Shown: positions 10,901-44,389, numbered from the stretch's first letter. The stretch is DNA of 64,000 bases from Propylenella binzhouense (GCF_009866965.1 NZ_SPKJ01000002.1:1-64000); one strand, 5' to 3'. Notes: a model not told the origin generated them from the sequence alone. Program-made: numbers and translations.

Positions 10901-10927
10901 GACGCTATAGCTGCCGCGTCCTTACAC
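10901..10927 (-). promoter_or_regulatory. ECF-type promoter-like signal for the ppsA operon
   Basis: Read on the minus strand: GTGTAAGGA at the -35 position, then CGTC 17 nt after GTGTAA, then TAAGGA 2 nt further. The CGTC ends 80 nt before the ppsA start. The same layout precedes glgA and the GH65 fusion gene, including an 11-base identity with the glgA copy. The rest of the 320-bp gap between ppsA and the phospholipase D gene shows nothing else I can name. Confidence 0.6.
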
Positions 10928-11141
10928 TTGCAGCGACACCGGGGTGCTCTCGGACGCACCTCGGCCCATGAAGGGCCTAGCGGCTGGAAACCAGCAGCGC
11001 CTAGCGACACAAGACCCCTTCCCGAGTGCGAGTGCGATTCGAGGAACTGCCGTTCTGTCGTTTGAATTCTGACGGATCATGCCGTCCTGAGGCACGGGCC
11101 AAGGTCGACCATTGCGCGCGTGGCAAGCAGGACATTTCGTG

Positions 11142-14001: not shown

Positions 14002-14028
14002 GACGCACTCGTTGCCTAGTTGTTACAC
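14002..14028 (-). promoter_or_regulatory. ECF-type promoter-like signal for the EF-hand gene
   Basis: On the minus strand GTGTAA is followed after 17 nt by CGTC, 133 nt before the EF-hand protein start. The GTGTAA overlaps the last codons and the stop (GTG TAA) of the GH65 fusion gene, so the EF-hand gene would have its own promoter inside the end of its upstream neighbour. Confidence 0.5.
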
Positions 14029-18129: not shown

Positions 18130-18156
18130 GACGCGCCGCAGCCCGTCTGGTTACAC
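18130..18156 (-). promoter_or_regulatory. ECF-type promoter-like signal for the GH65 fusion gene
   Basis: Minus strand: GTGTAACC, 17 nt from GTGTAA to CGTC, then TAAGGA 2 nt later, ending 64 nt before the start codon. The layout, including the trailing TAAGGA, copies that of ppsA. The remaining intergenic DNA up to 18277 shows no other feature. Confidence 0.6.
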
Positions 18157-24306: not shown

Positions 24307-25944
24307 TCACAACACGACCGTGAGGAGCAGGGCCACGATGCCCGCCGCTAGGCAGTAGTAGAGCATCGGCGCGAGCGTGAAGCGGATGATCGTTCCTTCC
24401 TGGCGAAGCAGGCCGACCACCGCCGCCGCCGCGACGACGTTGAGCACCGAGATCATGTTCCCCGCGTTGGCGCCGAGCATTTGCGCCGCCAGCACGACGG
24501 TGTCGGGGATTGCGGCGCGCTCGGCGGCGCCGAGCTGGAACAGCGCGAACATCATGTTGCTGAAGGTGGCGCTGCCCGACAGGAAGGCGCCGAGGGCGCC
24601 GACGAACGGGGCCAGCAGCGGCCAGCCGGCGCCGACCCAGTCAGCCGCGACCGTCGCCAGCTCCATCGGCATGCTGCCGAGGCCGGCCTGGTTGACGCCG
24701 GAATGGATGAAGATGCGCACCATTGGCACGGCTGTGCCCAGCGCCAGCGCGCTGGCGGCGAGGGCGAGACCCGTCTCGCGTAGCGCGGTGCCGGCCTGGC
24801 GGGCGCCCATCCCCTGCAGGGGGATGGTGGCCAGCACGACGACGACGAACACGGTCCCTGGCAGGTAGAGCGGTGCGAGCGAGACGGCGACCCCGGTGCC
24901 GAGAATTCCCGTCCAGGAGATCATCGCGGCCTGCAACCACTGCTTCAGCGGCAGGAACTCGACGCGGGTCGCGACCAGCAGGAGGGCCAGCAGCAGATAG
25001 GGCGCCCAGGCGCGGCCGAGCGGCATTCCGGGGGCCGGCGCGGCGGCGGGCCGATCATCCCCGCCCCGCGGCGGCAGGCGCGGCGGGAGCAGCAGCCCTT
25101 TGCGCGCGACCGGCACCACCACCGCGAGCCCGACCAGGGCGCCGATGAGCGAGGGGAACTCCGGCCCGAGCAGCACTGCCACCCCGAGCGCCGGCAGGGT
25201 GAAGGCGAGGCCGGCGAACATAGCGAAGCGCCAGGCGCGCAGCCCGTCCCGCCAGCTCCGCCGCGGATCGAAGAAGCGGGTCAGCACCAGCACCAGGATC
25301 AGCGGGATGAAGCTGCCGACGAACAGGTCGATGGTGATCGCCTGCACCGCCACAGACCGAAGAAAATCCGATAAGGATGCGTCGCCGATCACGTCGGCCG
25401 CGGCAGGGGCGAGATCGCCGCCCTCCTGCAGCCCCTGGGCGAGGCCGACCACGACCGGCGTGCCGATGGCGCCGAACGACACCGGACTGCTGTCGGCGAT
25501 CAGGGCGAGCACGACAGCGGCCATCGGCGCGAAGCCGAGCGCCACCAGCAGCGGCGCGGTGATCGCCGCCGGAGTCCCAAACCCGGCTGCCCCTTCGAGG
25601 AAGGCGCCGAACAGCCAGGCGATCAGGATCACCTGGGCGCGCGGATCGGGGGTGATGCGCTTGAACCCGCCGCGGATCGCCGCCATCGCGCCGCTCGCCG
25701 TCAGGGTCTTCAGCAGCAGGATGGCGCCGAACACGATCCACAGGATCGACGCCGCGATCACCACCCCCTCGATCGCCGCTGCGAGCACGTGCCGGACGGA
25801 AACGCTCCAGACGACGATGCTCACGGTGGCAGTGAGGGCGAGGCTGATCGGCATCGCTTGGGCGGCCGGCAGGCGCAGGACCACCAGCAGGCCGAGGACG
25901 GCGAGCAGGGGCGTCAGCGCGGCCAGAATTAATGGTGCGGACAT
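24307..25944 (-). CDS. lctP: L-lactate permease (LctP/LldP family)
   Basis: A 545-residue polytopic membrane protein of the lactate permease family, a proton symporter for lactate and glycolate. Family features are [44 protein letters not shown], and near the end [22 protein letters not shown] and [17 protein letters not shown]. Length matches the family. It is divergent from pfkB across a 375-bp gap that carries one ECF-like signal facing each gene. With the dehydrogenase at 7388 it makes a lactate-handling pair. Confidence 0.94.
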
Positions 25945-26039: not shown

Positions 26040-26066
26040 GACGCTCAAGGGTGCGCCCGGTTACAG
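26040..26066 (-). promoter_or_regulatory. ECF-type promoter-like signal for lctP
   Basis: Minus strand CTGTAACC with CGTC 17 nt after CTGTAA, ending 96 nt before the lctP start. It sits back to back with the pfkB-facing site at 26171 in the same intergenic region. Confidence 0.55.
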
Positions 26067-27492: not shown

Positions 27493-27870
27493 ATGCGGGC
27501 GCGTACGACAAGGGCGGCACAGATCGGACCCGTGCGGCGGGTAGCGGTGGCGCTTGTCCTGTCGTTGCTTCTCGTGCTCAGCACGAACTTGCACGTCGCG
27601 TACGACACGCCGGCATTCGCCGGCGCGGACGTGACGGACATGGGGCAGGTGACGAACGCCGAGCACCAGCCCGACCGCTCGCTGCCGGATGCCCTTGATG
27701 GCGTGCACTGCCACTCGTCCGGCTCGTGTCCCTGTTGCGCGCCGGTGGCACTTGCGCCGTTTTTCTTACACCCGGGTCCGGACGACTGGCCATTCCGGCG
27801 GGCAACCTCTCTGGCACCGCCCGCTCTCCACTCGCACTTCCGCCCACCTCGTCTCCCTGCGCACGCCTGA
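27493..27870 (+). CDS. Small secreted His/Cys-containing protein
   Basis: A 125-residue protein with a signal peptide or N-terminal anchor (RRVAVALVLSLLLVLSTNLHVAYDTPAFA). A short Cys/His cluster (VHCHSSGSCPCC, about 72-83) is followed by a hydrophobic and Pro/Phe-rich tail. I do not recognise the family. It resembles in style the secreted peptides at 34231 and 62160, which also have a signal sequence and a few Cys and His residues next to copper genes, so metal binding is a guess. It precedes the ECF sigma gene by 76 nt. Confidence 0.55.
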   Translation: MRARTTRAAQIGPVRRVAVALVLSLLLVLSTNLHVAYDTPAFAGADVTDMGQVTNAEHQPDRSLPDALDGVHCHSSGSCPCCAPVALAPFFLHPGPDDWPFRRATSLAPPALHSHFRPPRLPAHA

Positions 27871-27946: not shown

Positions 27947-28663
27947 ATGCCTGCATTGTCATGCAACCAATTTCCTGCCTCCGAGACGGCTGCCCTCGAT
28001 GACACGGTAAGCCGGCGACTGTCCGAGTGCCGGGGGGAGTTCTTCCGTTTTTTCCGCCGCCGCCTCGACCGGCGCGAGGACGCCGAGGATGCCTTGCAGG
28101 ATTTCTGCCTGAAGGTCATCCGCGCGGCACGGAAGCCCGATCACCACGAAAAGATCGATGCCTGGCTCGGCCGCATTCTGCGCAACACGCTGACCGACCA
28201 CTATCGGCGGCGCGCCGCGCGCCAGCGGGCCGAAGCCGCCTATCGGCGCGAGATCGAAGGCACGGTGTCGGAGGTCGACGCGGATCAGGACGGACTGCCG
28301 TGCTGCTGCCTCCACGATGCACTGCCGACGCTCAGGCCGGATTACGCCGAGATCTTGCGGCGCGCTGATCTCGACGAAGAGCCGCGCGAGCGGATTGCCG
28401 CCGACCTCGGGCTCACCGCCAACAATCTCGGGGTGCGCCTGCATCGGGCGCGGCGCGCCCTCAGGAAGAAGCTTGAGGACTGCTGCCCGACTTGCCGCGA
28501 TGGCGGCTTCGGTGACTGCAGCTGCGACGCGGCGCGCGAGAACGACGGCCCGACTCCTTGCGCCGGCGGGCGTAATGGCAACGCTGCCGCTGCGTCTGTA
28601 TCGGAGACGGCTATCCGCCCCGCCTCCGGCTCGGTGGTCGGCTCGAACGCGGCGCTTCCATGA
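27947..28663 (+). CDS. ECF sigma factor with C-terminal cysteine-rich domain (CorE/ECF44-like)
   Basis: A 238-residue ECF sigma factor. Region 2 is at about 25-90 (RRLDRREDAEDALQDFCLKV) and region 4 at about 125-175 (PTLRPDYAEILRR, then LGLTANNLGVRLHRARRAL). Cys119/121 form a CxC in the linker, and Cys180/183 plus Cys191/193 form CxxC-x7-CxC just after region 4. The second sigma gene (36464) has the same cysteines at the same spacing. In Myxococcus CorE-type factors such cysteines sense copper or other metals without an anti-sigma factor, and none is seen here. A polar tail of about 40 residues follows. Metal identity is inferred. Confidence 0.88.
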   Translation: MPALSCNQFPASETAALDDTVSRRLSECRGEFFRFFRRRLDRREDAEDALQDFCLKVIRAARKPDHHEKIDAWLGRILRNTLTDHYRRRAARQRAEAAYRREIEGTVSEVDADQDGLPCCCLHDALPTLRPDYAEILRRADLDEEPRERIAADLGLTANNLGVRLHRARRALRKKLEDCCPTCRDGGFGDCSCDAARENDGPTPCAGGRNGNAAAASVSETAIRPASGSVVGSNAALP

Positions 28664-28687
28664 CTCGAACCCGAAAGAGGTAAAGCG

Positions 28688-29740
28688 ATGAAACTCCGTC
28701 TCTCGATTGTCGCGGCGCTTGCTGCAATGCCTGCGGTGGCGCTGGCCGATCCGGTCTACGTCCCGCAGGGACACGCCAACTCTATCCTCGTCATCGACGG
28801 TGCCGCCGACCGGGTCATCGGCAGCATCGAAGGCGTTCCCGCCGTGCATGGCCTCGCATCGACACCCGATGGCCGGCACCTCGTCGCCGGGAGCGCGGAC
28901 GAGCGCCCGGCCGGCGCCGGTGCGCCCGACAAGCCCGAAGCCGTCCCCGACGCCGAGCATGCCGCCCACCACCCGGCTGCCGGCGCCGAGGTCGCGCCGC
29001 CCTCGGCAACGGTGAGCACGGTCTCGATCATCGACACGGCGGCGGCGGCGGTCATCCGCCGCGTCGATGTCCCGGGCGACGTCCACCATGTCGCGGTGGA
29101 TCCGACCGGCCGCTTCGCCGCGGTCACCCACCCGGGCCTCGGCGGCGTCACGGCGCTCGATCTCTCCAGCTTCGAGATCGCGGCGACCGTCGCCACGGGG
29201 CCGTACGCCAATTACGCCGCCTTCTCGCCGGACGGCCGCCGGCTTTACGTGAGCAACGCCGGCAACGGGACGGTGAGCGAGCTCGACGTCGAGCGCTGGA
29301 TCGTGCGCCGCAATGTGATCGTCGGGGAGACCCCCGAGCACCTCGTGCTCTCCCGCGACGGCGGCAGGCTCTATGTGAACAACGTGGACGCGGGTACCGT
29401 GTCGGTGGTGGACACGCCGACATTCGAGGTCGTCGACAATCTGGCCGCCGGTGCGCCGCTGCACGGCCTCGAGCTGGCTGACGATGGCGATACGATTTTC
29501 GTGGCCGTAATGGGCGAGGATCGCGTCGTCGCGTTCGATCTCGCCGGCCGCCAGCGGCGCGATGTCGCGCTGGCGCCCGCGCCCTATCACGTCGCGGCAA
29601 TAGCCGGGACCGGCAAGCTCTACGTCTCCAGCGACGTGGAGCCGAAGCTCTGGGTTGTCGACGGGGAGACGCTCGCCGTCCTGCACGAGATCGAGATCGA
29701 CGGCAAAGGCCATCAGATCGCCCAGCCGGCTCGGCGGTAG
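28688..29740 (+). CDS. Periplasmic YVTN/YncE-like beta-propeller protein
   Basis: A 350-residue protein with a signal peptide (about 1-20, ending AVALA) and repeated beta-propeller blades. Each blade carries motifs such as ILVIDGAADRVIGSIEGVP, RLYVSNAGNGTVSELDV and RLYVNNVDAGTVSVVDT. A Pro/Ala/His-rich insertion (about 75-105, with HAAHHPAAG) interrupts the second blade and might bind metal. Such propellers are usually scaffold or binding proteins. It starts 24 nt after the sigma gene with AAGAGG upstream, so it is likely co-transcribed with it. Confidence 0.88.
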   Translation: MKLRLSIVAALAAMPAVALADPVYVPQGHANSILVIDGAADRVIGSIEGVPAVHGLASTPDGRHLVAGSADERPAGAGAPDKPEAVPDAEHAAHHPAAGAEVAPPSATVSTVSIIDTAAAAVIRRVDVPGDVHHVAVDPTGRFAAVTHPGLGGVTALDLSSFEIAATVATGPYANYAAFSPDGRRLYVSNAGNGTVSELDVERWIVRRNVIVGETPEHLVLSRDGGRLYVNNVDAGTVSVVDTPTFEVVDNLAAGAPLHGLELADDGDTIFVAVMGEDRVVAFDLAGRQRRDVALAPAPYHVAAIAGTGKLYVSSDVEPKLWVVDGETLAVLHEIEIDGKGHQIAQPARR

Positions 29741-29797
29741 CGCCGGAACGAAGGTTCAGGCCGAGCATGTTCGAGTCGCAAAGGTGAAGGTCGAGCC

Positions 29798-29986
29798 ATG
29801 GACTGGCTTTCGGAGAACTGGCTTTGGGTCGTGATCGGCCTGGCCTTCATCGCCATGCACATGTTCGGCCATGGCGGTCACGGCGGCCATGGACATCGCG
29901 GCCGGCGTAATCGTGCCGGCAGGGAAGATCGTTCCGGGCCTGTCGATAGGCCTGACGACAATGCCCCGCCCGCTCATCGCCACTAG
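29798..29986 (+). CDS. Small DUF2933-type membrane protein
   Basis: A 62-residue protein with one N-terminal membrane segment (WLWVVIGLAFIAMHMFG) followed by a Gly/His repeat (HGGHGGHGHRG) and a polar tail ending HRH. This is the DUF2933 layout; members are found with copper and other heavy-metal resistance genes, and the His repeat suggests metal binding at the membrane surface. A second, longer member is at 40623. GAAGG lies upstream of the ATG. Confidence 0.75.
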   Translation: MDWLSENWLWVVIGLAFIAMHMFGHGGHGGHGHRGRRNRAGREDRSGPVDRPDDNAPPAHRH

Positions 29987-30115
29987 GGGAATGCAGCTGG
30001 GGTGAGGCCGGCCTGCCGTCGTTCCGGCGGAGCAACAAGCGCCCGGAGCATGGGCCAGAGTTCCCGAGCCTGCGAATAAAGTTCCATCCCCACGCCAACG
30101 CAAACGGAGACTGCG

Positions 30116-30391
30116 ATGCTGAACACGAAGCTGGTGACCTGGGCCCTCGGCCTCTGGGCCGCAATCACCTTCGTGGTTTGCGTGGTCTATGGCTTGGTGA
30201 CGCCGCAAAGCCTGGGTATGCAAGGATTTCTCGAAATGGTGCTGCCGGCCTTCACGTGGCTGACTTGGTGGGGATTTCTGTTGGGCCTCGTCGAGAGCTT
30301 CCTGTACGGCGCTTATGCCGGTCTCGTGTTCTGTCCAATTTACAATTGGTTGCAGAGGCGCTGGGGTGGCGTGAAAGATCGGACGGTCTGA
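30116..30391 (+). CDS. Small DUF5676-like membrane protein
   Basis: A 91-residue protein with two hydrophobic segments (VTWALGLWAAITFVVCVVYGLV and WWGFLLGLVESFLYGAYAGLVFCPIYNWL). The second segment and the ending IYNWL resemble the DUF5676 family of small inner-membrane proteins found beside DUF2933 and copper-resistance genes. Function unknown. GGAGA lies upstream of the ATG. It is the last plus-strand gene before the convergent glycogen synthase. Confidence 0.65.
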   Translation: MLNTKLVTWALGLWAAITFVVCVVYGLVTPQSLGMQGFLEMVLPAFTWLTWWGFLLGLVESFLYGAYAGLVFCPIYNWLQRRWGGVKDRTV

Positions 30392-30485
30392 GGGGGCGCA
30401 GAGGGAGGGCCGAAACAGCGCGTCAACCAGTCTTACGAAAGATGCGCAGCCGCGCTTCCGCCTACCCCGACAGACGAGGGATGCC

Positions 30486-32036
30486 CTACGCCCTTCCGGG
30501 CCGCGCTCGCAGCGGAGTAGACAGTCGCGTGGGATCTTCGCCCGGTTGCGCAGCGCGCCGGCGCTCCGATTCTCCTGATCCGAACGCAGCGCGGCTTCCG
30601 ACGAGCGACCGGTAAAGTGCAAGATATTGCTCGGCTGGCTTCTGCCATCCAAAGTCCTGCCGCATGGCATTGCGTTGCATCCGGCGCCATGCGAGGGGCT
30701 GCTGGAAGCCGGTCAGGGCGCGCTCCAGACCGGCCAGCATCTCCTCCAGAGACTCGCCGGAGAAGGCAAAGCCCGTCGCATTGCGCTCGTTCCGGGCGGA
30801 GCTGTCGACCACGGTGTCAGCCAGCCCGCCGACCGCCCGGACCACCGGCAGGGTCCCGTAGCGCATGGCGTAGATTGGGACGAGGCCGAAAGGTTCGAAG
30901 CGCGACGGATGCAGCAGGATGTCGCATCCGGCCAGCAGACGTCGGGCGCATCGTTCCTCGTAGCCGATCCGCACCGCGACGCGGCCGGGATAACGCTCCG
31001 CCAGAGTCAGCAGGCGGCTCTCCAACCCCCGGTCGCCCTGCCCGTGCAAGGCGAGCTGGGCGCCGGCCCCGACGAGCCACGGCACGGCCTCGGCGACCGT
31101 GTCGGCCATCTTTTGTTCGGTCAGGCGGCTCAGGAAGGCGACGACGGGCGTATCCGGTTCGACGGCGAGGCCGAGCTCGCGCTGGAGAGTTTCCTTGCAG
31201 ACGCGCTTGCCGCCGGTCTCGGCCAGATTGTACCGCCGGGGCAAAGTCGGATCATTGGCAGGATCCCAGACGCCGTAATCGGCTCCGTTCGGAATACCGG
31301 CGAGATGCCCGGCCCGGTGACGGAGCAGGCCATCGAGACCGCAGCCGAATTCCGGCGTCTGTATCTCGCGCGCGTAGGTGTGGCTGACCGTTGTCAGACG
31401 ATCCGCGTAGCGGATTCCCGCCTTCAGGAAGGAGATCCGGCCATGGAACTCGATCCCATCCGGCGAGAAGCACTCCGCCGGGATGCCCAGGCGCGGCAGC
31501 CGGTCGGCACCAAACAGCCCTTGGAAGGCGAGGTTATGGATCGTGAAGACGCTTGCCGGACGTTGCGCGGAGTGGTGGTCGAGCAGCAGCGGCACCAGCC
31601 CCGCATGCCAGTCGTTTGCGTGGACGACGTCCGCGCGCCAATCCAGCCCCAGCTCGCCTTGCGAGACCCGCGCGGCAGCACGGCTCAGCAGACAGAATCG
31701 CACGTCGTTGTCGGGCCAGTCGCGACCATCCGGGTCCTGGTACGGTCCACCCGCTCGGCGATAGAGCGGGGGACAGTCGATCAGCAAGAGCGGCAGATCG
31801 GAACCGGGGCTTCGGGCGGGGAGGAGCCGCGCCGGACCTGCGCCCGGCACCTCACCGAGCGGAACCGCACTGCCGAGATGGACCGCGCAGTCCATGACCT
31901 CGGGATAGCCGGGAAGCATTACGCGGATGTCGAGACCGAGCTCGCTCAGTGCAGCCGGGAGGGCGGCCGAGGCGTCGGCGAGTCCGCCCGTCTTGACCAG
32001 GGGGTAGAATTCGGAGGTGACGAACAGGACCCGCAT
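30486..32036 (-). CDS. glgA: Glycogen synthase (GT5, ADP-glucose)
   Basis: A 516-residue GT5 glycogen synthase that transfers glucose from ADP-glucose to the glycogen chain. The N-terminus has the ADP-glucose motif KTGGL (residues 15-19) in FVTSEFYPLVKTGGLADA. Further motifs are DVVHANDWHAGLVPLLL, FTIHNLAFQGLF and the C-terminal GT-B site SRFEPFGLVPIYAMRYGTLPVV...GGLADTV. I start at MRVLF with AGGAAA upstream. glgB and glgC are not in the window. An ECF-like signal lies 104 nt upstream, and a divergent one faces the other way. Confidence 0.94.
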   Translation of the reverse strand: MRVLFVTSEFYPLVKTGGLADASAALPAALSELGLDIRVMLPGYPEVMDCAVHLGSAVPLGEVPGAGPARLLPARSPGSDLPLLLIDCPPLYRRAGGPYQDPDGRDWPDNDVRFCLLSRAAARVSQGELGLDWRADVVHANDWHAGLVPLLLDHHSAQRPASVFTIHNLAFQGLFGADRLPRLGIPAECFSPDGIEFHGRISFLKAGIRYADRLTTVSHTYAREIQTPEFGCGLDGLLRHRAGHLAGIPNGADYGVWDPANDPTLPRRYNLAETGGKRVCKETLQRELGLAVEPDTPVVAFLSRLTEQKMADTVAEAVPWLVGAGAQLALHGQGDRGLESRLLTLAERYPGRVAVRIGYEERCARRLLAGCDILLHPSRFEPFGLVPIYAMRYGTLPVVRAVGGLADTVVDSSARNERNATGFAFSGESLEEMLAGLERALTGFQQPLAWRRMQRNAMRQDFGWQKPAEQYLALYRSLVGSRAAFGSGESERRRAAQPGEDPTRLSTPLRARPGRA

Positions 32037-32139
32037 GATCTTAGCCTGTTTCCTTCTGAGGAGTGCGCGGCAGCCAGCGAGGTGCCAAGCGCCGGCACAA
32101 ACCGCGCCCTGCCTCTGATTCGGCGTATCTGTCCTAAAG

Positions 32140-32167
32140 GACGTTCGAGCCAGGCTCGTCCTTACAC
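32140..32167 (-). promoter_or_regulatory. ECF-type promoter-like signal for glgA
   Basis: Minus strand GTGTAAGGACG, CGTC 18 nt after GTGTAA, then TTAGGA 2 nt later. GTGTAAGGACG is identical over 11 bases to the ppsA copy. It ends 104 nt before the glgA start. A short inverted repeat (GTCCT-AA-AGGAC) overlaps the CGTC end. Confidence 0.6.
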
Positions 32168-32253
32168 CGTCACGGTCCGTACCGCTGCGGCGGCGCCAGT
32201 CAACGACCGGTCCGAACCCCACGCCGTATCGGTATCCTGTGCGGGGGCTGTGC

Positions 32254-32280
32254 GTGTAACGAGGGCGCAAGCTGTGCGTC
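32254..32280 (+). promoter_or_regulatory. ECF-type promoter-like signal, divergent from glgA
   Basis: Plus strand GTGTAAC with CGTC 17 nt after GTGTAA. It is followed 20 nt later by a start codon with GGAGGTG upstream (see 32301). Apart from this pair of signals and the short open frame, the 464 bp between glgA and the DUF411 gene hold nothing I recognise. Confidence 0.5.
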
Positions 32281-32300
32281 CGATAGGCTGGAGGTGGACG

Positions 32301-32390
32301 ATGTCGGACGATGATCCGAAACATGCGACATCAGGTATAAGCGTCCACCAAACGAGCCGTATGGCGTTCACGGAAAAATCGAGAACTTAG
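32301..32390 (+). other. Possible micro-ORF or truncated copy of an ECF sigma 5' end
   Basis: A 29-codon frame (starting MSDDDPKH) has a good ribosome site (GGAGGTG, 5-6 nt) and the ECF-like signal 20 nt upstream. Promoter, spacing, ribosome site and the first codons resemble those of the sigma gene at 36464 (MSDDPER); after that the similarity stops. It may be a promoter-proximal scrap of a duplicated sigma gene, a leader peptide, or chance. Confidence 0.3.
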
Positions 32391-32500
32391 CTCCACTGTC
32401 CCAAGAATGCGCCGATCCGCGACGGGCGGCGCGGGTGTACTGTGTCATCGCGGATCGGCTCGTCTCGGGCACCGGCCAGGACTGGCGGCCGAAGGCCCGT

Positions 32501-32953
32501 TCAGTGTCGGGCGTAAACGTCAGTCGTTCCATCTCCGTGAGCGAGCAGGACATCATAAGGCTCGCTGCCCATGTCCATACCCGGTGACGCAGCTGGCATC
32601 CCCGGAGCGGTCAGCCCGACCGCCTCGGGCCGTTCCGACAGTAACCGCCGGACATCCTCCGCGGGGACATGGCCCTCGATCACGTAGCCACCGACGAAAG
32701 CCGTGTGACAGGAGGCATGCTCGTCGGCGATCCCGGCCTCAGCCTTCTTCGCCGACAGAGCCTCGTATGAAAGGTTCGTGGCTTCCACGTCGAACCCGGA
32801 GGTTCGCATGTGGTCGATCCATCCGCCGCAGCAGCCGCAGTTGGCGTCCTTGTAGACCTGGACCGTCTCGTCCGAAGCAACCGAGGCCATGGACGCCAAA
32901 GACACCGGGACGAGGACGGCCGCAGCGGCCGCGAGTGCGATTTTGAGCTTCAT
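32501..32953 (-). CDS. Periplasmic DUF411 metal-binding protein
   Basis: A 150-residue protein with a signal peptide (about 1-27, ending ASMASVAS). The DUF411 core begins VQVYKDANCGCCGGWIDHM, with Cys39, Cys41 and Cys42, and continues to HASCHTAFVGGYVIEGHVP (another Cys/His pair). DUF411 proteins have a CxCC metal site and are encoded near copper oxidases and copper pumps; a copper chaperone role is the common proposal. A Met-rich tail (PGMPAASPGMDMGSEP) supports Cu(I) affinity. GGAAAGG precedes the ATG. It lies 53 nt downstream of nirK in the same direction. Confidence 0.88.
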   Translation of the reverse strand: MKLKIALAAAAAVLVPVSLASMASVASDETVQVYKDANCGCCGGWIDHMRTSGFDVEATNLSYEALSAKKAEAGIADEHASCHTAFVGGYVIEGHVPAEDVRRLLSERPEAVGLTAPGMPAASPGMDMGSEPYDVLLAHGDGTTDVYARH

Positions 32954-33006
32954 GACAGAGTACCTTTCCACAGTCAGCGTTGCAGCTCTGGCGCGACTTC
33001 GAGCGC

Positions 33007-34068
33007 TCAGTGAGCCTCGTGCGCCGTCTGCTCCGTTGCCTGGTGAGGAGTGAACAGGTCCGCCTGATCAGGTCCTTCGACGACGAGCTTGCCGACCAAC
33101 CCCCGGGCTGCCCGCGAAAGCGCATGGTCGACGAGCACGTATTCGCCCGGGACCTCCAGCTTCAGGTCGACAACCGCCGCAGCGCCCGGAGGCACCGAGA
33201 TAGTCTGAACGTCCCTGAGCGGTTCGGTTGCCAGAGATGCAAGCTCGTATACTGCGTCGAAGATCTCACCGATAACGTGGAAGCTCGACGTCTTGTTCGG
33301 TCCGCCCACGCCGAAATAGATCCTGACCGTCTCGCCGACCTCTGCCGTGAGAGCGTTCTCGCCCGCAAGAGCACCCACGGCGCCGTTGAACACGTAGTAC
33401 TCCGGGGCTTCGCTCAGGAGCTTCGCCTCGCTCTCCGCGAGCATGCCCTGCGAGCCAAACGCCTCCTGGGTATAGATCTCCCCCTGCATCACGTAGAACT
33501 CGCGGTCGACAGCCGGGAGTCCGCCCTCCGGCTCCACGAGAATCAGGCCGTACATCCCGTTGGCGATGTGCGAAGCGGCCGTCGGCACTGCGCAGTGGTA
33601 GACATACAGTCCCGGCTTCGTGGCCTTGAAGGCGAAGCCCTTCGTCTCGCCCGGCTCCGCATCGGTGGCATGGGCGCCGCCGCCCGGTCCGGTCACGGCG
33701 TGGAAATCGACGTTGTGCTTCATGGCGCTGTCGGCTCGGTTCGCCAGCGTCACCTCAACTGTGTCGCCGACGCGCACGCGCACGAAAGGGCCCGGGACCT
33801 TCCTGTTGAAGGTCCAGTAGTGGTAGGTGGCGCCCTCTGCGAGCTGCCCCGTCACCTCAACCGTCTCCAAGCCGATCTTCACCGTCCGGGGCCCGCGGTC
33901 GTCAACGGATCCCGGGAGATCGTCTGGAGCACGGATGACGTTGAGCGGGGCGTCTGCCGTCCCGTTCTCGGCCGGGTGGTCATGCGCGTGGCTGCCCGCC
34001 GAGAAGGCTGGGGCTGTCGAACCAATGATGAGGACTGCCGCAGCGGCAGTGATCGTGAACCTTTTCAT
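33007..34068 (-). CDS. nirK: Copper-containing nitrite reductase (NirK/AniA-like)
   Basis: A 353-residue secreted two-cupredoxin protein with a signal peptide (about 1-24) and a His-rich start. Type-1 copper ligands are seen in KHNVDFH (His118), VYHCAVP (Cys159) and SHIANGMYG (His167, Met172). Type-2 ligands are His123, His158 and a His in the second domain (DHALSRAARGL). SFHVIGEIFD holds the second-shell catalytic His. The pattern is the AniA/NirK group reducing nitrite to nitric oxide in the periplasm. It ends in a His-rich tail. AGGAG stands 8 nt before the ATG. No nor, nos or nirV genes are nearby. Confidence 0.88.
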   Translation of the reverse strand: MKRFTITAAAAVLIIGSTAPAFSAGSHAHDHPAENGTADAPLNVIRAPDDLPGSVDDRGPRTVKIGLETVEVTGQLAEGATYHYWTFNRKVPGPFVRVRVGDTVEVTLANRADSAMKHNVDFHAVTGPGGGAHATDAEPGETKGFAFKATKPGLYVYHCAVPTAASHIANGMYGLILVEPEGGLPAVDREFYVMQGEIYTQEAFGSQGMLAESEAKLLSEAPEYYVFNGAVGALAGENALTAEVGETVRIYFGVGGPNKTSSFHVIGEIFDAVYELASLATEPLRDVQTISVPPGAAAVVDLKLEVPGEYVLVDHALSRAARGLVGKLVVEGPDQADLFTPHQATEQTAHEAH

Positions 34069-34230
34069 GTCTTTGAGCTCCTGGCGCCGCGGGACGGAGA
34101 TCGGTTTCTCTCAAAGAGAGTCCCTGCGCCTGTTCTGAATTCCTGCTGGTGGTCTCGCACAGTCCGCGCTGGCGCGCCGGCCGTGCTCAGGATCAGATGC
34201 CGCGTGGAGGGCGGCGGAGCCCCGGAACTG

Positions 34231-34557
34231 TCACCCCGGCCGGAGCTGGCGGGCGACATCTGCAAAAGACTGCCTCGTCGCGGTGATCGCGACAGCACCC
34301 TCGGACATTACCGCCGACCACAAGCAGGCACTTACGCAGGGCATGGTGTCGGCGCTGTAGCCATGGCCGCCGTGATGGGAATGGTCTGCTGCCAGCGAGT
34401 GATCGGTCTTTCCGTCGCAGTCAATTCCGGCGTGGAGGTGGTGCTGGGCTGGCGACGCCGTTGCCATCGACGCGGCATGAACAGGCCCCTGAAGGAGGAG
34501 CCCCGCGGCTGCTCCTAACACGAGGACCAGAGCAATGAATCGGGCCAGCGATGCCAT
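34231..34557 (-). CDS. Small secreted His-rich protein
   Basis: A 108-residue protein with a signal peptide (MASLARFIALVLVLGAAAGLLLQGPVHAA), a His/Asp-rich stretch (about 40-70, including HHLHAGIDCDG and DHSHHGGHGYS) and a CVSAC motif. I do not recognise a named family; composition and position next to nirK and DUF411 suggest periplasmic metal binding. It is similar in plan to the protein at 62160 (signal peptide, then Cys pairs with CFALC). The longer upstream frame has no support. Confidence 0.6.
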   Translation of the reverse strand: MASLARFIALVLVLGAAAGLLLQGPVHAASMATASPAQHHLHAGIDCDGKTDHSLAADHSHHGGHGYSADTMPCVSACLWSAVMSEGAVAITATRQSFADVARQLRPG

Positions 34558-34671
34558 TCCTAAACAGCCATATGCCCTTGTTTCACCCGATCGTCTGCCC
34601 GGCAATGACCATGACAGAGGACTGACGCCACCCACGGGTAGAGCATGATGGGCACGAGTTCCAGACCGAGG

Positions 34672-34697
34672 GTGTAACCCAGGCATCCAGAGACGTC
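34672..34697 (+). promoter_or_regulatory. ECF-type promoter-like signal facing the insertion sequence
   Basis: Plus strand GTGTAACC with CGTC 16 nt after GTGTAA. No gene follows before the insertion sequence at 35059, so it is either a leftover promoter whose gene is gone or chance. Confidence 0.3.
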
Positions 34698-34905
34698 GGT
34701 GGCGCTTTCCCTCCCGTGCGGAGACCATTCTTGACCATGCGCTCAGATCTCTCTGCGAAAACCATCGGTTGATATTCATTCACCATGCCTGCCGCATCTC
34801 CCGCAGCGCTGCTGTGCTGGCGCCCGATGCCGTGCTGTCAAACGCCCGCTCGCATAGTTGAATCGCGCTGAGACACCACATATGCGGAGTCCGCGGGTAC
34901 CGACA

Positions 34906-34919
34906 TTGCGCTGGATCAA
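34906..34919. promoter_or_regulatory. FNR/FixK-type box
   Basis: TTGCGCTGGATCAA fits TTG-N8-CAA. Read on the opposite strand, the site at 27419 is TTGAGCTGGATCAA, one base different, and the flanks (ACA before, GTT after) also match. It lies 140 bp before the insertion sequence, which separates it from the sigma gene at 36464. Confidence 0.45.
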
Positions 34920-35130
34920 GTTCAGACCCGAAGCACCTTGGCCAGGCTTCCCTAATCGCCAACGAGCCGTCCGCGATTGTAGCCTCTTATACGACGGCGT
35001 TCGGGTGCATCGTTAGTTCGCGGCTCCTGGTGAATTCACCACCACTTATTTAGCACCCTGAAGTGCTCCCCGTTTCGACCGGACAGGCGGCGTAAGCAGG
35101 GGACCCAGGCATAGACCTGGGGCTACGCCT

Positions 35131-35520
35131 ATGTCCGAGGAGTTCTCCCGCGCGGAGGTGATCAGCGGCGTCGCCCGGCGGCGTCGGTTCACGGCCGAGC
35201 AGAAGCTCGCGATCGTCGCCGAGACGATGCAGCCGGGCATGTCGATCAGCTACGTTGCCCGCAGCCACGGGCTCTCGCCGAGCCTCGTGTTCCGGTGGAG
35301 GCGGCTGATGACCGATGGCGGCCGCGAGGCGGTGCGTGCGGACGACGACGTGGTGCCGGCCGCCGAGGCGCGCCGGCTCGAGGAGCGCGTCCGCGCGCTC
35401 GAGCGCCAGCTCGGGCGCAAGACGCTCGAGGTGGAGATCCTGAAAGAGGCGCTGGACCTCGCCCGGGCAAAAAAACCGACCTTGCTGTCCAGCTCGCGGC
35501 CGGGGGACGGTTCCCGGTGA
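35131..35520 (+). CDS. IS2-group transposase subunit OrfA
   Basis: A 129-residue OrfA with the InsC/IS2-type helix-turn-helix (RRRFTAEQKLAIVAETMQPG, then SYVARSHGLSPSLVFRWRRL) and a leucine-zipper-like coiled coil (EERVRALERQLGRKTLEVEILKEAL, about 88-112). It binds the element ends and acts as the N-terminal part of the OrfAB transposase. A run of seven A at 35469-35475, in the phase GCA AAA AAA C, is a classic -1 slippage site leading into orfB. Confidence 0.93.
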   Translation: MSEEFSRAEVISGVARRRRFTAEQKLAIVAETMQPGMSISYVARSHGLSPSLVFRWRRLMTDGGREAVRADDDVVPAAEARRLEERVRALERQLGRKTLEVEILKEALDLARAKKPTLLSSSRPGDGSR

Positions 35521-36359
35521 AGGCGGTGACCGAGACCCTCGGCGTCGCCCGCTCGAACGTCGTCGAGCGCGTGAAGGCGGCTCGGCCGAAGCGCGGCCCC
35601 CAGATCCGCGAGGGCGATCTGGAGCTCACGGCCGACATCCGGCGCCCCGTCGACGAGAGGCCGACCTACGGGTACCGGCGGATCGCCGCGCTTCTCAGGC
35701 GCGAGCGGCGGACCGCCGAAGAGCCGTCCGTCAACGCGAAGCGCGTCTACCGGCTGATGAAGAAGAACGGGCTGCTCCTCGCCCGGCACAGCGGGCGCCG
35801 CTTGGCACGGCGGCACGAGGGAGAGGTCGCGACGCCGCGTTCGAACATCCGCTGGTGCTCCGACGCGCTCGAGTTCTCGTGCTGGAACGGCGAGGTGGTG
35901 CGCGTCGCCTTCGCGCTCGACTGTCACGACCGCGAGGTCATCGGGTGGACGGCGACAACCGCCGGCATCTCGGGCGAGATGATCCGCGACATGATGGTCG
36001 AGTGCGTCGAGACCAGGTTCGGCTCGCCACGGGCGCCGGAGCGCATCCAGTGGCTGACCGACAATGGCTCGACCTACGCCGCGGCGAAGACGATCGACAT
36101 GGCGCTCGCGCTGAACCTCGAGCCCTGCTTCACGCCCGTCGAGAGCCCCGAGAGCAATGGTCTCGCCGAAGCCTTCGTGAAGACGTTCAAGCGCGACTAC
36201 GTCCGCGTGAACCCGATCCCCGACGCGGCGACCGCCATCGCCGCCGTCAGGGACTGGATGGAGGACTACAACACCGTCCATCCTCACAGCCGGCTCGGAT
36301 ATCGCTCGCCCCGCGAGTACCTCCGGGCCATGTCGCAGCCTACCGCGTGTCCGGTCTGA
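35517..36359 (+). CDS. IS2-group transposase OrfB (DDE catalytic part)
   Basis: A 280-residue frame starting at a GTG overlapping the orfA stop; the functional protein is probably the OrfAB fusion made by -1 frameshifting near 35475. It matches IS2 InsD: RPTYGYRRIAALLRRE, NAKRVYRLMKKNGLLL, and the catalytic triad in WCSDALEF (Asp), WLTDNGSTY (Asp) and SPESNGLAEAFVKTFKRDY (Glu), ending HPHSRLGYRSPREYLR. All three acidic residues are present. Confidence 0.93.
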   Translation: MKAVTETLGVARSNVVERVKAARPKRGPQIREGDLELTADIRRPVDERPTYGYRRIAALLRRERRTAEEPSVNAKRVYRLMKKNGLLLARHSGRRLARRHEGEVATPRSNIRWCSDALEFSCWNGEVVRVAFALDCHDREVIGWTATTAGISGEMIRDMMVECVETRFGSPRAPERIQWLTDNGSTYAAAKTIDMALALNLEPCFTPVESPESNGLAEAFVKTFKRDYVRVNPIPDAATAIAAVRDWMEDYNTVHPHSRLGYRSPREYLRAMSQPTACPV

Positions 36360-36416
36360 CAGGGTCAACACCACACCCGCCCTAGCATTGTGCTTCGAGG
36401 TCTTCATAGATAGCGC

Positions 36417-36443
36417 ATGTAAGAACTTGACAAGCCCCGCGTC
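36417..36443 (+). promoter_or_regulatory. ECF-type promoter-like signal for the second ECF sigma gene
   Basis: ATGTAAG with CGTC 17 nt after ATGTAA, 20 nt before the sigma start codon. The sigma gene thus seems to carry the same signal as its supposed targets, which points to autoregulation. It lies 44 bp downstream of the insertion sequence end, so the promoter itself was spared. Confidence 0.55.
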
Positions 36444-36463
36444 GGAAAGAACCGGAGATGACG

Positions 36464-37120
36464 ATGTCTGATGATCCGGAACGCGCTGGCGAGGCAGAGA
36501 GCGAGCCGAAAGGAGCTACGTTGCGGGCGGACGCTGCCGTGCGCCGAGCTCTCGTGGAAAGTCGCTGTCAGATGCTCGGCTTCCTTCGGCGGCGGCTGGG
36601 GAGCGCGGAAGAAGCGGAAGACGTGCTTCAGGCCTTCATGCTTCGGGCGCTCGAGCGCTCGGCCGAGCTGCGCGACGTGCGGACGGTCCGCGGCTGGTTA
36701 AGCCGGATCCTTGCCACGACCATCGTCGACCATCAGCGTCGCGCCGCCAGACGGCGGCAGCGGGAGGCGGTCATGAGCCCTGACGATCTCGAAGCCTTGT
36801 CGATCGAGCCCGATGCCGAGCTGGACGAGGCGGTCTGCAACTGCCTTTACAAGCTCCTTCCAACGATAAAGCCGGAATATGCCGAGGTGATCTGGCGGAT
36901 CGACCTGCTGGGAGAGCCACGGGACCGTGTGGCCGCAAGCCTCGGCGTTAGCTTGAACAACATCACCGTGAGGCTGCACCGCGGTCGGCAGGCGCTGAAG
37001 AAGCGGTTGGAGGAGATGTGCGAGATCTGCCCGGTGCACGGCTTTCTCGACTGCCGCTGCGAGGAGGCGGAGCGCGCCCGCCGCCAGCGCGAGGAAGCGG
37101 CTGCTGCCTTGGACCTGTAA
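36464..37120 (+). CDS. ECF sigma factor with C-terminal cysteine-rich domain (CorE/ECF44-like)
   Basis: A 218-residue ECF sigma factor, paralogue of the one at 27947. Region 2 is LGFLRRRLGSAEEAEDVLQAF and region 4 is LPTIKPEYAEVIWRIDLLGE to NNITVRLHRGRQALKKRL. Cysteines: CxC (Cys125/127) in the linker, CxxC (186/189) and CxC (197/199) in the tail, the same spacing as in the paralogue. No anti-sigma gene follows. I start at the second ATG because GGAG directly abuts the first one (36458). Its promoter carries the ECF-like signal. Probably metal-responsive; copper is inferred from the downstream P1B ATPase. Confidence 0.88.
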   Translation: MSDDPERAGEAESEPKGATLRADAAVRRALVESRCQMLGFLRRRLGSAEEAEDVLQAFMLRALERSAELRDVRTVRGWLSRILATTIVDHQRRAARRRQREAVMSPDDLEALSIEPDAELDEAVCNCLYKLLPTIKPEYAEVIWRIDLLGEPRDRVAASLGVSLNNITVRLHRGRQALKKRLEEMCEICPVHGFLDCRCEEAERARRQREEAAAALDL

Positions 37121-37141
37121 TGCGGGAGACCTTGCCGCGTC
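37115..37141 (+). promoter_or_regulatory. ECF-type promoter-like signal for the metal-ATPase operon
   Basis: CTGTAA (its last three bases are the sigma gene stop codon), 17 nt, CGTC, 105 nt before the Cys-rich peptide gene that opens the P1B ATPase operon. Confidence 0.55.
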
Positions 37142-37246: not shown

Positions 37247-37459
37247 ATGAAGCCAGACACCAACACCCCGATGGCGGGTCCATCCGCTCGCAGCGGAGAT
37301 TCCTGTTGTGGCCACGGCGCGCGTGAGGCGACCGAGGAGACTCGGCCGCCGGTGGCGGCCGAGAAGCCCGTTGCGGATCGGCAAGCAGCGGCCGCACCAG
37401 AGACCGCACGTGCACAGACCACGGGTGCCAAGTCGAGGGGCTGCTGTTGCGGCGGCTAA
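37247..37459 (+). CDS. Small Cys-rich peptide, putative metal binder
   Basis: A 70-residue protein with AGGAG well placed upstream of its ATG. It has a CCGHG near the middle-N-terminus (residues 20-24) and ends GCCCGG, with a charged Ala/Pro-rich linker between and no signal peptide. No family is recognised. Position 126 nt before the P1B ATPase and the two Cys clusters suggest a cytosolic metal-sequestering or delivery peptide. Confidence 0.6.
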   Translation: MKPDTNTPMAGPSARSGDSCCGHGAREATEETRPPVAAEKPVADRQAAAAPETARAQTTGAKSRGCCCGG

Positions 37460-37585: not shown

Positions 37586-39994
37586 TTGCAGACAGTGACG
37601 CTTGAGGTCGGCGGCCTCTTCGAAGAGCTCGATCATCTTGGTGTCGAGAAGCAGCTCAACGGAGAGAAGGGCGTCATTAGGGCAAGCGCCAACCCTGCCT
37701 CCGGCAGCGTCACGGTCGATTATGACGAGGCGGTGACGAGCGCCGAGGCACTGCGGAGGACGGTGAAGTCCTGCGGCTTCCGCTGCCGCGGTAAGGTGGT
37801 GCCACGACACGTCTGCAGACCAGACAGCGCCACAGTGCCGCCGCAGACCCCGACGCACTGTGGACATGCCCAAACGTCGAGAACCGGCGCACCGGGGCCA
37901 GGCGCTTCGACGCGCCAGGCCTCCGCGCCTGCGCATGACGAAATGGCGCACGAGATGGGCCATGACGTCGGCATGGACATGCAGGACATGGTCCGCGACA
38001 TGCGGAACCGCTTCTGGATCGCGCTCGTCTTTACAATCCCGATCTTCGTCTATTCGCCGATGGGCGGGATGTTCACCCCGCCGGCGCCGCCCTTTGGCCT
38101 TGACCTCGACCTCTGGCTGTTCTTCCTCGCCAGCGCCGCAGTGCTCTATCCGGTCTGGCCGTTCGTGGTCGCCGCCTGGCGGGCGCTCAAGAACGGCGTG
38201 CTCAACATGGCCGTCCTCGTCGTGCTCTCCGTCGGCACCGGCTACATCTTCAGCGTCGGCTCGACCTTCTTCTTCCCCGGCGTGCAATTCTATGAAGCCG
38301 TTGCGGTGCTGCTGGTGTTCATCCTGCTCGGCCACTGGCTGGAGATGCGGGCGCGCGCCGGCGCCTCGGCGGCGATCCGGGCGTTGCTCGATCTCGCTCC
38401 GCCGATGGCCACCGTGCTGCGCGACGGCCGCGAGGTCGAACTGCCCACCGCCGAGGTTCAGGCCGGCGACACCGTCGTCATTCGGCCGGGCAACAAGATC
38501 CCGGTCGACGGTGAGATTATCGAGGGCGAGTCCCTCGTCGACGAGTCGATGCTCACCGGCGAGTCCATGCCGGTGCAGAAGGCGCCGGGCGACGAGGTGA
38601 TCGGCGCCACCATCAACAAGAGCGGCAGCTTCAAGTACCGGGCCACCAAGGTGGGCGCCGACACGGCGCTGGCGCAGATCGTCAAGCTGGTGCAGGAGGC
38701 GCAGAACTCCAAGGCGCCGGCCCAGCTCCTCGCCGACAAGGCCTCCCAATGGCTGGTGCTGATCGCGATTGTCATCGGTCTAGTCACCTTCGCCGTGTGG
38801 TTCTGGTGGATCGGCGAGCCGCTGCTGTTCGCGCTGACCCTCACCATCACGGTCTTCGTCATCGCCTGCCCTGACGCGCTCGGGCTCGCGACCCCTATGG
38901 CGGTGATGGTCGGCACCGGGCTCGGCGCCACGCACGGCATCCTGTTCAAGAACGCGAGCGCGCTCGAGGAAGCGACCAAGCTCGACGTCATCGTCTTCGA
39001 CAAGACCGGCACGCTCACCATGGGCCAGCCCAAGGTCGTCGAGGTCGTGCCGGCGCCCGACCGCACAGAAGATGACGTGCTGCGTGCGGCGGCGGCGGTT
39101 GAGCGCGGCTCCGACCACCCGCTCGCCCTGGCGATCGTCGAGCGCGCCGAAAGTCTCGACGTCCCTGAGACGCGCGCTTTCCTCAACCTCGAAGGCAAGG
39201 GCGCACGCGCGGAGATCCGTGGTCGCACAGTGCTGATCGGCAATCGCCGCCTCATGGACGACGAGCGGGTCGACCTCGGCGGCCTCGCTGACGAGGCGGA
39301 ACGGCTGAAGGGCGCCGGTCGCACCGTGGTCCATGTCGCCGAAGGCGGCGTTGCTGCCGGTCTGATCGCCATTGCCGACGCGCCACGACCGTCGGCGGCC
39401 AGGACGCTCGCGGCCCTGCGCCAGCGCGGGCTACAGGTTGCGATGCTGACCGGCGACAATGCCGGCACGGCAAGACGGATCGCGGAGGAGCTCGGCGGCA
39501 TCGATATCGTGCTGGCCGATGTGCTTCCCGGCCAGAAGGCCGAGAAGGTCAAGGAGCTACAAGCCCAGGGCAAGCGCGTCGGCATGGTCGGCGACGGCGT
39601 CAACGATGCGCCGGCGCTGACGCAGGCCGATGTCGGCTTCGCCATCGGCGCCGGCACGGACGTGGCGATGGAGAGCGCCGACGTGGTGCTGATGAAGAGC
39701 GATCCCTACGACGTGGTCGGCGCCATCGAGCTTTCGCGCGCCACCCTGCGCAAGATGCGCCAGAACCTGTTCTGGGCGGTCGCCTACAATGTCGTCGCCT
39801 TCCCGATGGCGGCCGGCGTCTTCTATCCCCTGGTGATCAGCCCCGAGGTCGCGGCCTTGGCGATGTCGGGCAGCTCGGCGCTGGTCGCCGTCAACGCCCT
39901 ACTCCTGAAGCGCACGCGCCTGGAAGGGATCGGTCGCGCCGATGCCCCGCCGCCGGAACTGGCCACCACCGAGCCCGTCGGAGCAGCAGCGTGA
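37586..39994 (+). CDS. P1B-type heavy-metal ATPase with CPD motif
   Basis: An 802-residue metal pump. Residues 1-70 look like an HMA fold whose CxxC is missing (GGLFEELD where GMTCxxC is expected), followed by a His/Met-rich segment ([19 protein letters not shown]). About eight membrane segments follow, with actuator [16 protein letters not shown] (CPD at 428-430 in place of CPC or CPH), DKTGTLT (Asp472), HP locus [10 protein letters not shown] and [16 protein letters not shown]. The CPD variant leaves the exported metal uncertain; copper is favoured by the neighbours. The TTG start is supported by AGGAGG 6 nt upstream. A GTGA overlap links it to the next reading frame. Confidence 0.93.
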
Positions 39995-40908: not shown

Positions 40909-41583
40909 ATGACCGACGACGCCCCCGCCTACGGCCTCTGGTTCCTGGTCGTGCTCAATTCGGCGATCTTCATCCTGTTCGCCTTCAGCTTCTTCAAGCC
41001 GAACACCGCGCGGGATTGGCGTTCCTTCGGCGCTTTCAGCGCCTTCCTCGTGGCGCTGTTCACCGAGATGTACGGCTTTCCGCTGACCATCTATCTTCTT
41101 TCCGGCTGGCTACAGAGCCGCTATCCGGGCGTGGACTGGCTGTCGCACGACGCCGGTCACCTGCTCGAGATGCTGTTCGGCTGGAAGGCCAACCCGCATT
41201 TCGGGCCGTTCCACCTCCTCAGCTTCGCCTTCATCGGCGGCGGTTTCGTCGTGATCGCGGCGGCATGGAAGGTGCTGTACGAGGCGCAGCGCCGGCATGC
41301 GCTGGCGACCACCGGACCATACGCCCATGTCCGCCACCCGCAATATGTCGGCTTCATCCTGGTGCTGTTCGGGTTCCTGCTGCAGTGGCCGACGCTGCTG
41401 ACCTTGCTCATGTTCCCGGTGCTCGTCTTCATGTATGTGCGGCTTGCCCGTACCGAGGAGCGCGAGGCGCTGGCCGAGTTCGGTGAAGCCTATCGCCGCT
41501 ACATGGCGAATGTGCCGGGATTCATCCCGAACCTATCCAGACTCGCCGGCCGCGCATCGCGCGGCGGCAAACAGCATCCGTGA
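40909..41583 (+). CDS. Isoprenylcysteine carboxyl methyltransferase-like membrane protein
   Basis: A 224-residue membrane protein with about five hydrophobic segments. The C-terminal signature GPYAHVRHPQYVGFILVLFGFLLQWP plus RLARTEEREALAEFGEAYRRYM is that of the ICMT/PEMT-like family, which methylates membrane-bound substrates with S-adenosylmethionine. Bacterial members often sit beside copper ATPases and DUF2933 genes, where their substrate is unknown. The in-frame upstream codons overlap the previous gene and are not needed. Confidence 0.85.
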   Translation: MTDDAPAYGLWFLVVLNSAIFILFAFSFFKPNTARDWRSFGAFSAFLVALFTEMYGFPLTIYLLSGWLQSRYPGVDWLSHDAGHLLEMLFGWKANPHFGPFHLLSFAFIGGGFVVIAAAWKVLYEAQRRHALATTGPYAHVRHPQYVGFILVLFGFLLQWPTLLTLLMFPVLVFMYVRLARTEEREALAEFGEAYRRYMANVPGFIPNLSRLAGRASRGGKQHP

Positions 41584-41592
41584 AGCCGGAAC

Positions 41593-43556: not shown

Positions 43557-44123
43557 TCATTTCATTAAACTTGGTGATCGTGCGCTGACGGCCTCGGGCA
43601 GGAGCCCAAAGTGGCCGGCGATGCCAGCCAAAGAAGTCGATAGCGCTACCGGATCCTCATCCGTCCCGATGCGCGTGGCGCGCCGGAACAGCATGCCCGC
43701 CGAGGGGCCGACCCGCTCGCGCGCCATCTTGCGACCGAGAAGCAGCATCTGAGCATCTGACTGGAGGCGACCCCGAGCAACCATCGCCCCATGGCTGGGA
43801 AGTCGCTCAGGCGCTGTCCGAGGCTCCTGCGGAGAGCCTGCGGCAGCGCACGCGCGTGACCGTCTCGGCGCTCTGCCATGTGCAGCGATGCGCCAAGGAG
43901 GAGGCCGAGAAAATCGTTTGCCGTGCAGGAACCCGGTGATCCGCTGCCGGCCATCGGCCGGCAGCTTGTCGGCCCTTACCGGTGCCCCTCGAAGCCAAGC
44001 ATCGCCCATCTGTCGTAAGCCCCGCCGCAGCGCAGTGACCCGCTTCTCATCTGTAAGAGATCGGCTGCTCACGCGTCTCTTCTGGTAACCGCGCCTGCGT
44101 ACGGAGCTTGCGTCCGAACGCAA
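43557..44123 (-). other. Doubtful minus-strand region, possibly a decayed gene
   Basis: A 188-codon open frame runs here, but residue patterns that look protein-like hop between the three minus-strand frames (RQRITGFLH in one, TANDFLGLLLGASLHMAE in the next, SDAQMLLLGRKMARERVGPSAGML in the first again). It might be a frameshifted phasin-type or other helical protein. I cannot assign a family with confidence, and the ECF-like signal at 44051 overlaps its 5' part on the other strand. Confidence 0.2.
44051..44077 (+). promoter_or_regulatory. ECF-type promoter-like signal for the YHS-to-pgm operon
   Basis: CTGTAAG with CGTC 17 nt after CTGTAA. The next supported plus-strand gene is the YHS protein at 44390, about 310 nt away; a doubtful short frame lies between. 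The downstream genes overlap or follow closely as far as 52834. Confidence 0.45.
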
Positions 44124-44174: not shown

Positions 44175-44378
44175 TTGAAGGACGGAGCGGGAACCAGCTG
44201 CGGGCCCCAGCACACTCACGACCATGCGGCCGAGGCAATGTGCTGCTGCCGGCGTGCCGTTGGGGCAGGGCGGGCTGGGCGTCGCTCGGCATTCCTCGCG
44301 AATGGCTGCTTCGCTGCGTCACCGCGGTCTGATGTTTTCGACGCAGCCTTCCGTCGCGAAGGCGTCGCGTCCCATTGA
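44175..44378 (+). other. Doubtful short Cys/His-containing frame
   Basis: A 67-codon frame from a TTG with GAGAGG upstream begins MKDGAGTSCGPQHTHDHAAE and has CCC shortly after, a style seen at the N-terminus of YHS-containing copper proteins. The second half looks noncoding. It could be a leader frame or the frameshifted start of a longer YHS protein. Confidence 0.25.
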
Positions 44379-44389
44379 GGAGGTCCCAC

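Follow-up and report, generated by a model that had tools for sequence, protein, structure and literature searches.

A conserved pair of CorE-like sigma factors linked to one promoter motif and a putative mobile copper and energy regulon in Propylenella binzhouense

The window analysed here, a 64,000-nucleotide stretch of the Propylenella binzhouense genome, encodes two ECF sigma factors, type B (P0001) and type A (P0002), which by their sequence are members of the CorE-like group (CRD, former ECF44), in which the metal sensor resides in the sigma factor's own Cys and not in an anti-sigma factor. We consider it likely, from sequence comparisons, that they form an ancient pair in which B would be the metal sensor and A an autoregulated amplifier, and that their single regulon would be the mobile island that carries them. 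The kind of sigma factor is already known. What appears to be new here is the conserved A/B pair on what is probably one promoter, the presence of the motif before A only, and the putative mobile regulon of copper and energy genes, which we have not found described.

Two sigma factors with one cysteine layout

Both proteins match Pfam Sigma70_r2 and Sigma70_r4_2, i.e., regions 2 and 4 only. The original prediction of a CxC in the linker, a CxxC-x7-CxC in the tail and a common 59-residue interval between the second linker Cys and the first tail Cys proved exact by residue positions, the six Cys being located at positions 119, 121, 180, 183, 191 and 193 of P0001 and 127, 129, 188, 191, 199 and 201 of P0002. 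A CxC in the sigma2-sigma4 linker is the hallmark of ECF44 (PMC8999054), and the CorE paper gives four invariant Cys in the CorE tail, at 181, 184, 192 and 194, thus also CxxC-x7-CxC (PMC3107203).

The pattern appeared in 1 of 200,000 composition-preserving shuffles of P0001 and in none of 200,000 of P0002. Among 48 aligned proteins, 33 of type A and 15 of type B, the six Cys are invariant (48/48) and no other Cys is; the type B proteins contain variable extra Cys without counterpart in type A. Every intact CorE-like factor found in a scan of 80 loci measures 75 residues from its linker CxC to its tail CxC. The 59-residue spacing is therefore not peculiar to P0001 and P0002 but reflects the fixed region-4 length of the family. 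Three diverged relatives located beside CRD sigma factors (L030, L133 and L141) have an incomplete six-Cys layout, with CxxC-x4-C only or without the linker CxC.

As had been noted originally, no anti-sigma gene comes after either factor: a recognisable anti-sigma domain was not seen among the following genes. The downstream neighbour of the type B gene is a YncE-like propeller gene, as in Hoeflea, and that of the type A gene is a 70-aa Cys-rich ORF followed by a P-type ATPase gene. No third CRD factor was found in the P. binzhouense genome.

Phylogeny and distribution of the two types

Public genomes were scanned with an alignment of seven relatives, yielding the 80 loci, nearly all of them alphaproteobacterial, and trees were built with FastTree and with IQ-TREE in quick mode. 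The CRD-bearing factors form one clade against the outgroups (SH-aLRT 99 in IQ-TREE), which also holds the factors of Roseovarius sp. 217, TM1035, Chelativorans and the P. zucineum plasmid. This single clade, the Cys signature and its invariance bear out the CorE-like (ECF44-type) identity proposed at the outset. Within it, the type A clade, with P0002, has an SH-aLRT of 98 and the type B subclade with P0001 one of 95, while the node joining the latter to the roseobacter type B factors has 86; FastTree also separates type A from type B. The two types lie within 10 kb of each other in about 32 of the 80 loci. These two deep clades and their co-occurrence argue that the A/B pair is old and has been kept together. 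The cysteine layout might otherwise be a chance resemblance or the product of a recent tandem duplication. We found no point in support of either and give them practically no credence: the shuffles and the 48/48 invariance rule out chance, and the two deep clades rule out recent duplication.

In an even draw across the class, CorE-like factors were found in 5 of 385 genomes, this one included, and are thus sparse. The annotated relatives are mostly plasmid-borne, many on conjugative plasmids, and the genes of the window, trb genes included, stand in an order closely similar to that on Indioceanicola plasmid 3. A contig filed under the Acidimicrobiaceae MAG NAT239 (L036) bears the alphaproteobacterial island, its sigma domains being identical to those of an Indioceanicola plasmid, likely by binning contamination or plasmid transfer.

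A promoter motif clustered around the sigma genes

The window holds 10 matches to the motif TGTAA-N16..18-CGTC where 0.33 would be expected, and none of 100 shuffles reached the observed count (Table 1). Of the 11 sites of the exact N17 form in the complete 4.7-Mb genome, 8 fall in the window (binomial P about 2e-13) and none in the remaining 89 kb of the same contig. The shared promoter signal of the original prediction is thus real, with none of its copies before the first sigma gene. An N16 site at 34673-34697 was set aside; it lies inside an opposite-strand ORF beside an insertion element.

Across the 80 related loci (1.51 Mb), the N17 spacing gave 210 matches, and each other spacing gave 0 to 10. 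Paired loci contain 129 N17 matches versus a mean of 1.5, A-only loci 81 versus a mean of 2.1, and plasmid segments with type B and without type A 22 versus a mean below 0.5. In 8 of 10 B-only plasmid segments of roseobacters and Roseibium, the motif lies ahead of the next operon, 9 to 23 bp past the stop codon of the sigma gene; the same cell may hold a type A gene on another replicon. Two copies are also found downstream of the factor of Ca. Manganitrophus (Nitrospirota). G is favoured before CGTC, and T or A after it. Whole-genome counts overlap between genomes with and without the sigma factors, arguing against a genome-wide enrichment, so that the evidence for the motif is its clustering near the sigma genes and not its total number.

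The exact motif is absent near the sigma gene in the A-only loci of Hyphomicrobium. A single motif without an obvious gene after it is conserved in five Bradyrhizobium loci (L105 9013-9038, minus strand, and its orthologues). In many A-only loci (L116 21586-22501, L047, L060 and others), the sole motif precedes a gene for a Crp/Fnr-family regulator, which suggests a sigma-to-Fnr relay.

The motif found ahead of the second sigma gene, as had been claimed, is conserved upstream of type A in 46 loci, and through this site type A would be autoregulated. By contrast, no TGTAA-type site of any kind was found upstream of the type B genes (0/27). Nor was a second, type B-specific motif identified in these 27 upstream regions, by inspection and not by formal motif discovery; a separate type B promoter motif is disfavoured by the lack of TGTAA-type sites upstream together with the same N17 motif downstream in B-only loci. 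Since A-only, B-only and paired loci all carry the motif, types A and B probably read one promoter. The -35 recognition helix is the segment in which A and B are most alike (65% versus 13-44% elsewhere), which is weak evidence on this point because conservation of region 4.2 is general among ECF factors. The promoters of the group are defined by a -35 AAC and a -10 G separated by 16-18; the spacing of TGTAA[T/G/C]-N17-CGTC fits, and only about one site in four has C after TGTAA.

Table 1. Sigma genes, motif sites and neighbouring genes in the window
Feature	Coordinates	Strand	Remarks
TGTAA-N17-CGTC site	10901..10926	-	before PEP synthase/PPDK-type gene (8395-11010 ORF, internal start)
TGTAA-N17-CGTC site	14002..14027	-	before EF-hand protein (13357-13869) and PRC-barrel protein
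HAD hydrolase, trehalose-phosphatase and GH65 fused in a single ORF	14023-18066	-	domain match
TGTAA-N17-CGTC site	18130..18155	-	before HAD/trehalose-phosphatase/GH65 fusion (14023-18066)
TGTAA-N17-CGTC site	26040..26065	-	before lactate permease (24307-25944)
Small membrane-anchored protein	27493..27870	+	125 aa; just before the type B gene
Type B CorE-like ECF sigma factor P0001	27947..28663	+	238 aa; first gene
YncE/cytochrome-D1-like beta-propeller	28688..29740	+	after type B sigma
Promoter-like N18 site	32140..32166	-	about 104 bp upstream of probable glgA start (about 32036)
TGTAA-N17-CGTC site	32255..32280	+	no obvious downstream gene
TGTAA-N17-CGTC site	36418..36443	+	immediately upstream of type A sigma
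Type A CorE-like ECF sigma factor P0002	36458..37120	+	220 aa; second gene
TGTAA-N17-CGTC site	37116..37141	+	before Cys-rich ORF and P-type ATPase
Cys-rich ORF (SCCGHG...RGCCCGG)	37247..37459	+	70 aa; no Pfam match
HMA-containing P1B-type ATPase	37586..39994	+	domain match
TGTAA-N17-CGTC site	44052..44077	+	before YHS ORF (44375-44590) and CFA synthase (44587-45933)

Gene content of the island and of related loci

When the first genes after the motif are counted by locus, the most frequent, besides the type A sigma gene itself (46), encode CFA synthase (30), DUF3141 (19), DUF5676 (15) and Crp/Fnr (15) proteins, followed by P-ATPases (11) and multicopper oxidases (6). The neighbours of the relatives include genes for copper ATPases, multicopper oxidases, DUF2933 and ICMT proteins, and the same loci contain genes of glycogen breakdown, lower glycolysis, arginine deiminase, phosphoketolase and acetate kinase. 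Copper-resistance genes are neighbours on the B-only plasmids, and genes for copper export or copper binding are those most widely common to the loci, Nitrospirota included.

The glgA gene, preceded in the window by an N18 site, carries the N17 form of the motif in other loci. The positional counterpart of the 32255 site in Indioceanicola is upstream of a hypothetical gene. The Cys-rich ORF before the P-type ATPase gene possibly encodes a small copper chaperone or a metallothionein-like protein.

Several further features of the window were recorded. The phosphatase and GH65 parts that are fused here are separate genes in Croceicoccus. FtsH appears to be split (41580-43499, plus strand), with the AAA domain and part of M41 in 41845-43002 and the remaining M41 in 43002-43499; it is a single ORF in Indioceanicola, and a frameshift, a true split or an assembly error may account for this. 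SPW repeat and VKOR domains are combined in one ORF at 57776-59164 (minus strand). An IS3-type element at about 35131-36359, just ahead of the type A gene, is adjoined by copper-type cargo at 32501-34068 (minus strand), consisting of a DUF411 protein and a cupredoxin/multicopper-oxidase-type protein.

The small membrane protein upstream of type B

The protein encoded immediately 5' of the type B gene, which had not been remarked on originally, has an N-terminal hydrophobic stretch, a CHSxxSC sequence and a C-terminal FRPPRLPAHA sequence, and no Pfam match. At least 12 further loci show the same architecture just 5' of type B, with near-constant spacing, and a similar small His/Cys-rich protein is encoded upstream of a type A gene in Bradyrhizobium. 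We considered that type B might be controlled by this protein, acting as an unusual anti-sigma factor or as a periplasmic metal sensor. The conservation of the tandem over several families and the two conserved Cys within the His/Cys patch speak for such control. However, its predicted cytoplasmic part comprises only about 15-20 residues and appears insufficient for any known anti-sigma domain, no protein of this type was found beside the roseobacter type B clade, no domain match places it, and CorE-like factors are known to work without anti-sigma factors. We therefore regard control by the membrane protein as unlikely.

A possible circuit and its alternatives

In the arrangement that we favour, type B would be expressed independently, from a promoter unlike TGTAA-N17-CGTC, together with the membrane protein, which may be an accessory sensor, and type A would be expressed from the shared promoter. 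Binding of metal by the linker CxC and the tail CxxC and CxC would render the sigma factor active and bring RNA polymerase to this shared promoter. As an analogy with CorE suggests, metal binding by the six Cys would alter the shape of the sigma factor. The location of the motif before A only suggests that B acts first and A as an amplifier. Thus, B probably fires first, and A would then boost its own expression and keep the regulon on. The latter would be the mobile island, comprising copper export (the P-type ATPase with its small Cys-rich partner), membrane lipid genes and carbon metabolism, with glycogen, trehalose, PEP and lactate metabolism presumably yielding ATP while the metal poisons respiration.

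A more specific version, which we put forward tentatively and rate at somewhat below an even chance, is a mobile two-sigma circuit in which the non-autoregulated B, with its membrane partner, would turn on the autoregulated A, and one promoter would link copper export with a route around respiration that is encoded on plasmids (from glycogen to lactate or acetate, with arginine deiminase in relatives), so that poisoning by metal would be answered by fermentative ATP production. Such a regulon would connect, on conjugative elements, the defence against copper with central carbon metabolism; we found no earlier description of this connection in the searchable literature.

Two copies in one island had originally been taken to suggest two signals or a cascade. 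A cascade or feed-forward arrangement agrees with the architecture, i.e., with a motif upstream of A and of none of the 27 B genes. There is no indication of two regulons, one for each signal, because the motif of the A-only loci is also that of the B-only loci. The two factors may nevertheless sense different metals, for instance Cu versus Zn or Cd, and work side by side on a single set of promoters, without forming a cascade. The related CorE and CorE2 of M. xanthus do differ in metal (PMC8999054), the extra Cys of type B have no equivalent in type A, and loci with only one of the two types exist with the same motif; this arrangement is a possible one. It does not readily account for the asymmetry of the motif, and in most annotated loci the neighbours of both factors are of copper type.

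A more distant alternative is that the Cys are redox or structural zinc sites and that the factors respond to a shortage of oxygen or to thiol stress, the copper genes being one part of an anoxia regulon. Fermentative functions are indeed frequent among targets and neighbours, from glycogen to lactate, acetate kinase/Pta, arginine deiminase, phosphoketolase and the Crp/Fnr regulator, and the Cys189 of CorE is missing. On the other hand, copper export and copper-binding genes are the most shared neighbours, even in Nitrospirota, and the six-Cys layout fits a group in which the only characterised members named in reviews, CorE and CorE2, both respond to metals. We consider this explanation improbable, and the arrangement of a B sensor and an A amplifier remains our preferred one.

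Comparison with known systems

SigZ (TIGR02959) is among the best curated NCBIfam matches of the two sigma factors, but at 79-85 bits they score under the curated cut-off of 168.65, and membership was rejected. Among solved structures, the best matches are ordinary ECF factors (SigL, SigE and SigH), whose alignments stop at about position 177 of 200. In AlphaFold2 models, the linker and the CRD have a low confidence (pLDDT about 38-58), and joint coordination of metal by the six Cys thus finds no support there.

The 2011 list of CRD factors contains Roseovarius sp. 217 (03265, 03275, 03325), Roseovarius TM1035 (00365, 00375), Roseobacter litoralis, Mesorhizobium BNC1 and a Phenylobacterium zucineum plasmid (PMC3107203). 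Two of our pairs (L046 and L113) are very probably the listed Roseovarius genes because their one-gene interval matches the listed numbers, an identity deduced from gene order and not from tags. The Roseovarius pairs (ROS217_03265/03275 and RTM1035_00365/00375) are thus apparent orthologues of the B/A pair, with arginine deiminase genes there in place of the glycogen and lactate genes here. In the accessible part of the 2011 paper, we found neither their pairing nor a common promoter discussed.

CorE2 of Myxococcus xanthus, which responds to Cd and Zn, shares the group and, according to review descriptions, the plan of linker and tail Cys; it was compared by description only, and the neighbours of P0001 and P0002 differ in being of copper type.

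The closest system is CorE of M. xanthus (MXAN_3426), which was left unclassified in the 2021 ECF classification (PMC8999054). It is likewise a sigma2-sigma4 factor with a linker CxC and a tail CxxC-x7-CxC at equal spacing, with no recognisable anti-sigma gene after it and copper genes around it, and the 16-18 spacing of its -35 AA and -10 G elements agrees with that of the motif here. As reported in the CorE paper, CorE requires metal for DNA binding and acts without an anti-sigma factor; the C189A substitution nearly abolishes activation by copper, and C184A causes constitutive activity (PMC3107203). By the published residue numbers, on which this comparison rests, the equivalent of C184 is kept in P0001 and P0002, but Cys189, the chief residue for copper activation, is replaced by Phe in both; a Cys is present at this position in the Ca. 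Manganitrophus relative. Although the neighbouring genes are of copper type, the copper gating of CorE is therefore not transferable to the two factors, and the copper-redox switch that had been invoked by reference to CorE is not supported for them in that form. The system described here differs further in that two paralogues probably share one promoter, with far broader targets on largely mobile DNA. The pair offers a natural comparison, as two sisters have the same six Cys and the same putative promoter in different surrounding residues, and both lack the Cys required for copper activation of CorE. The determinant of metal choice in a CorE-like sensor thus becomes directly testable by comparing A with B.
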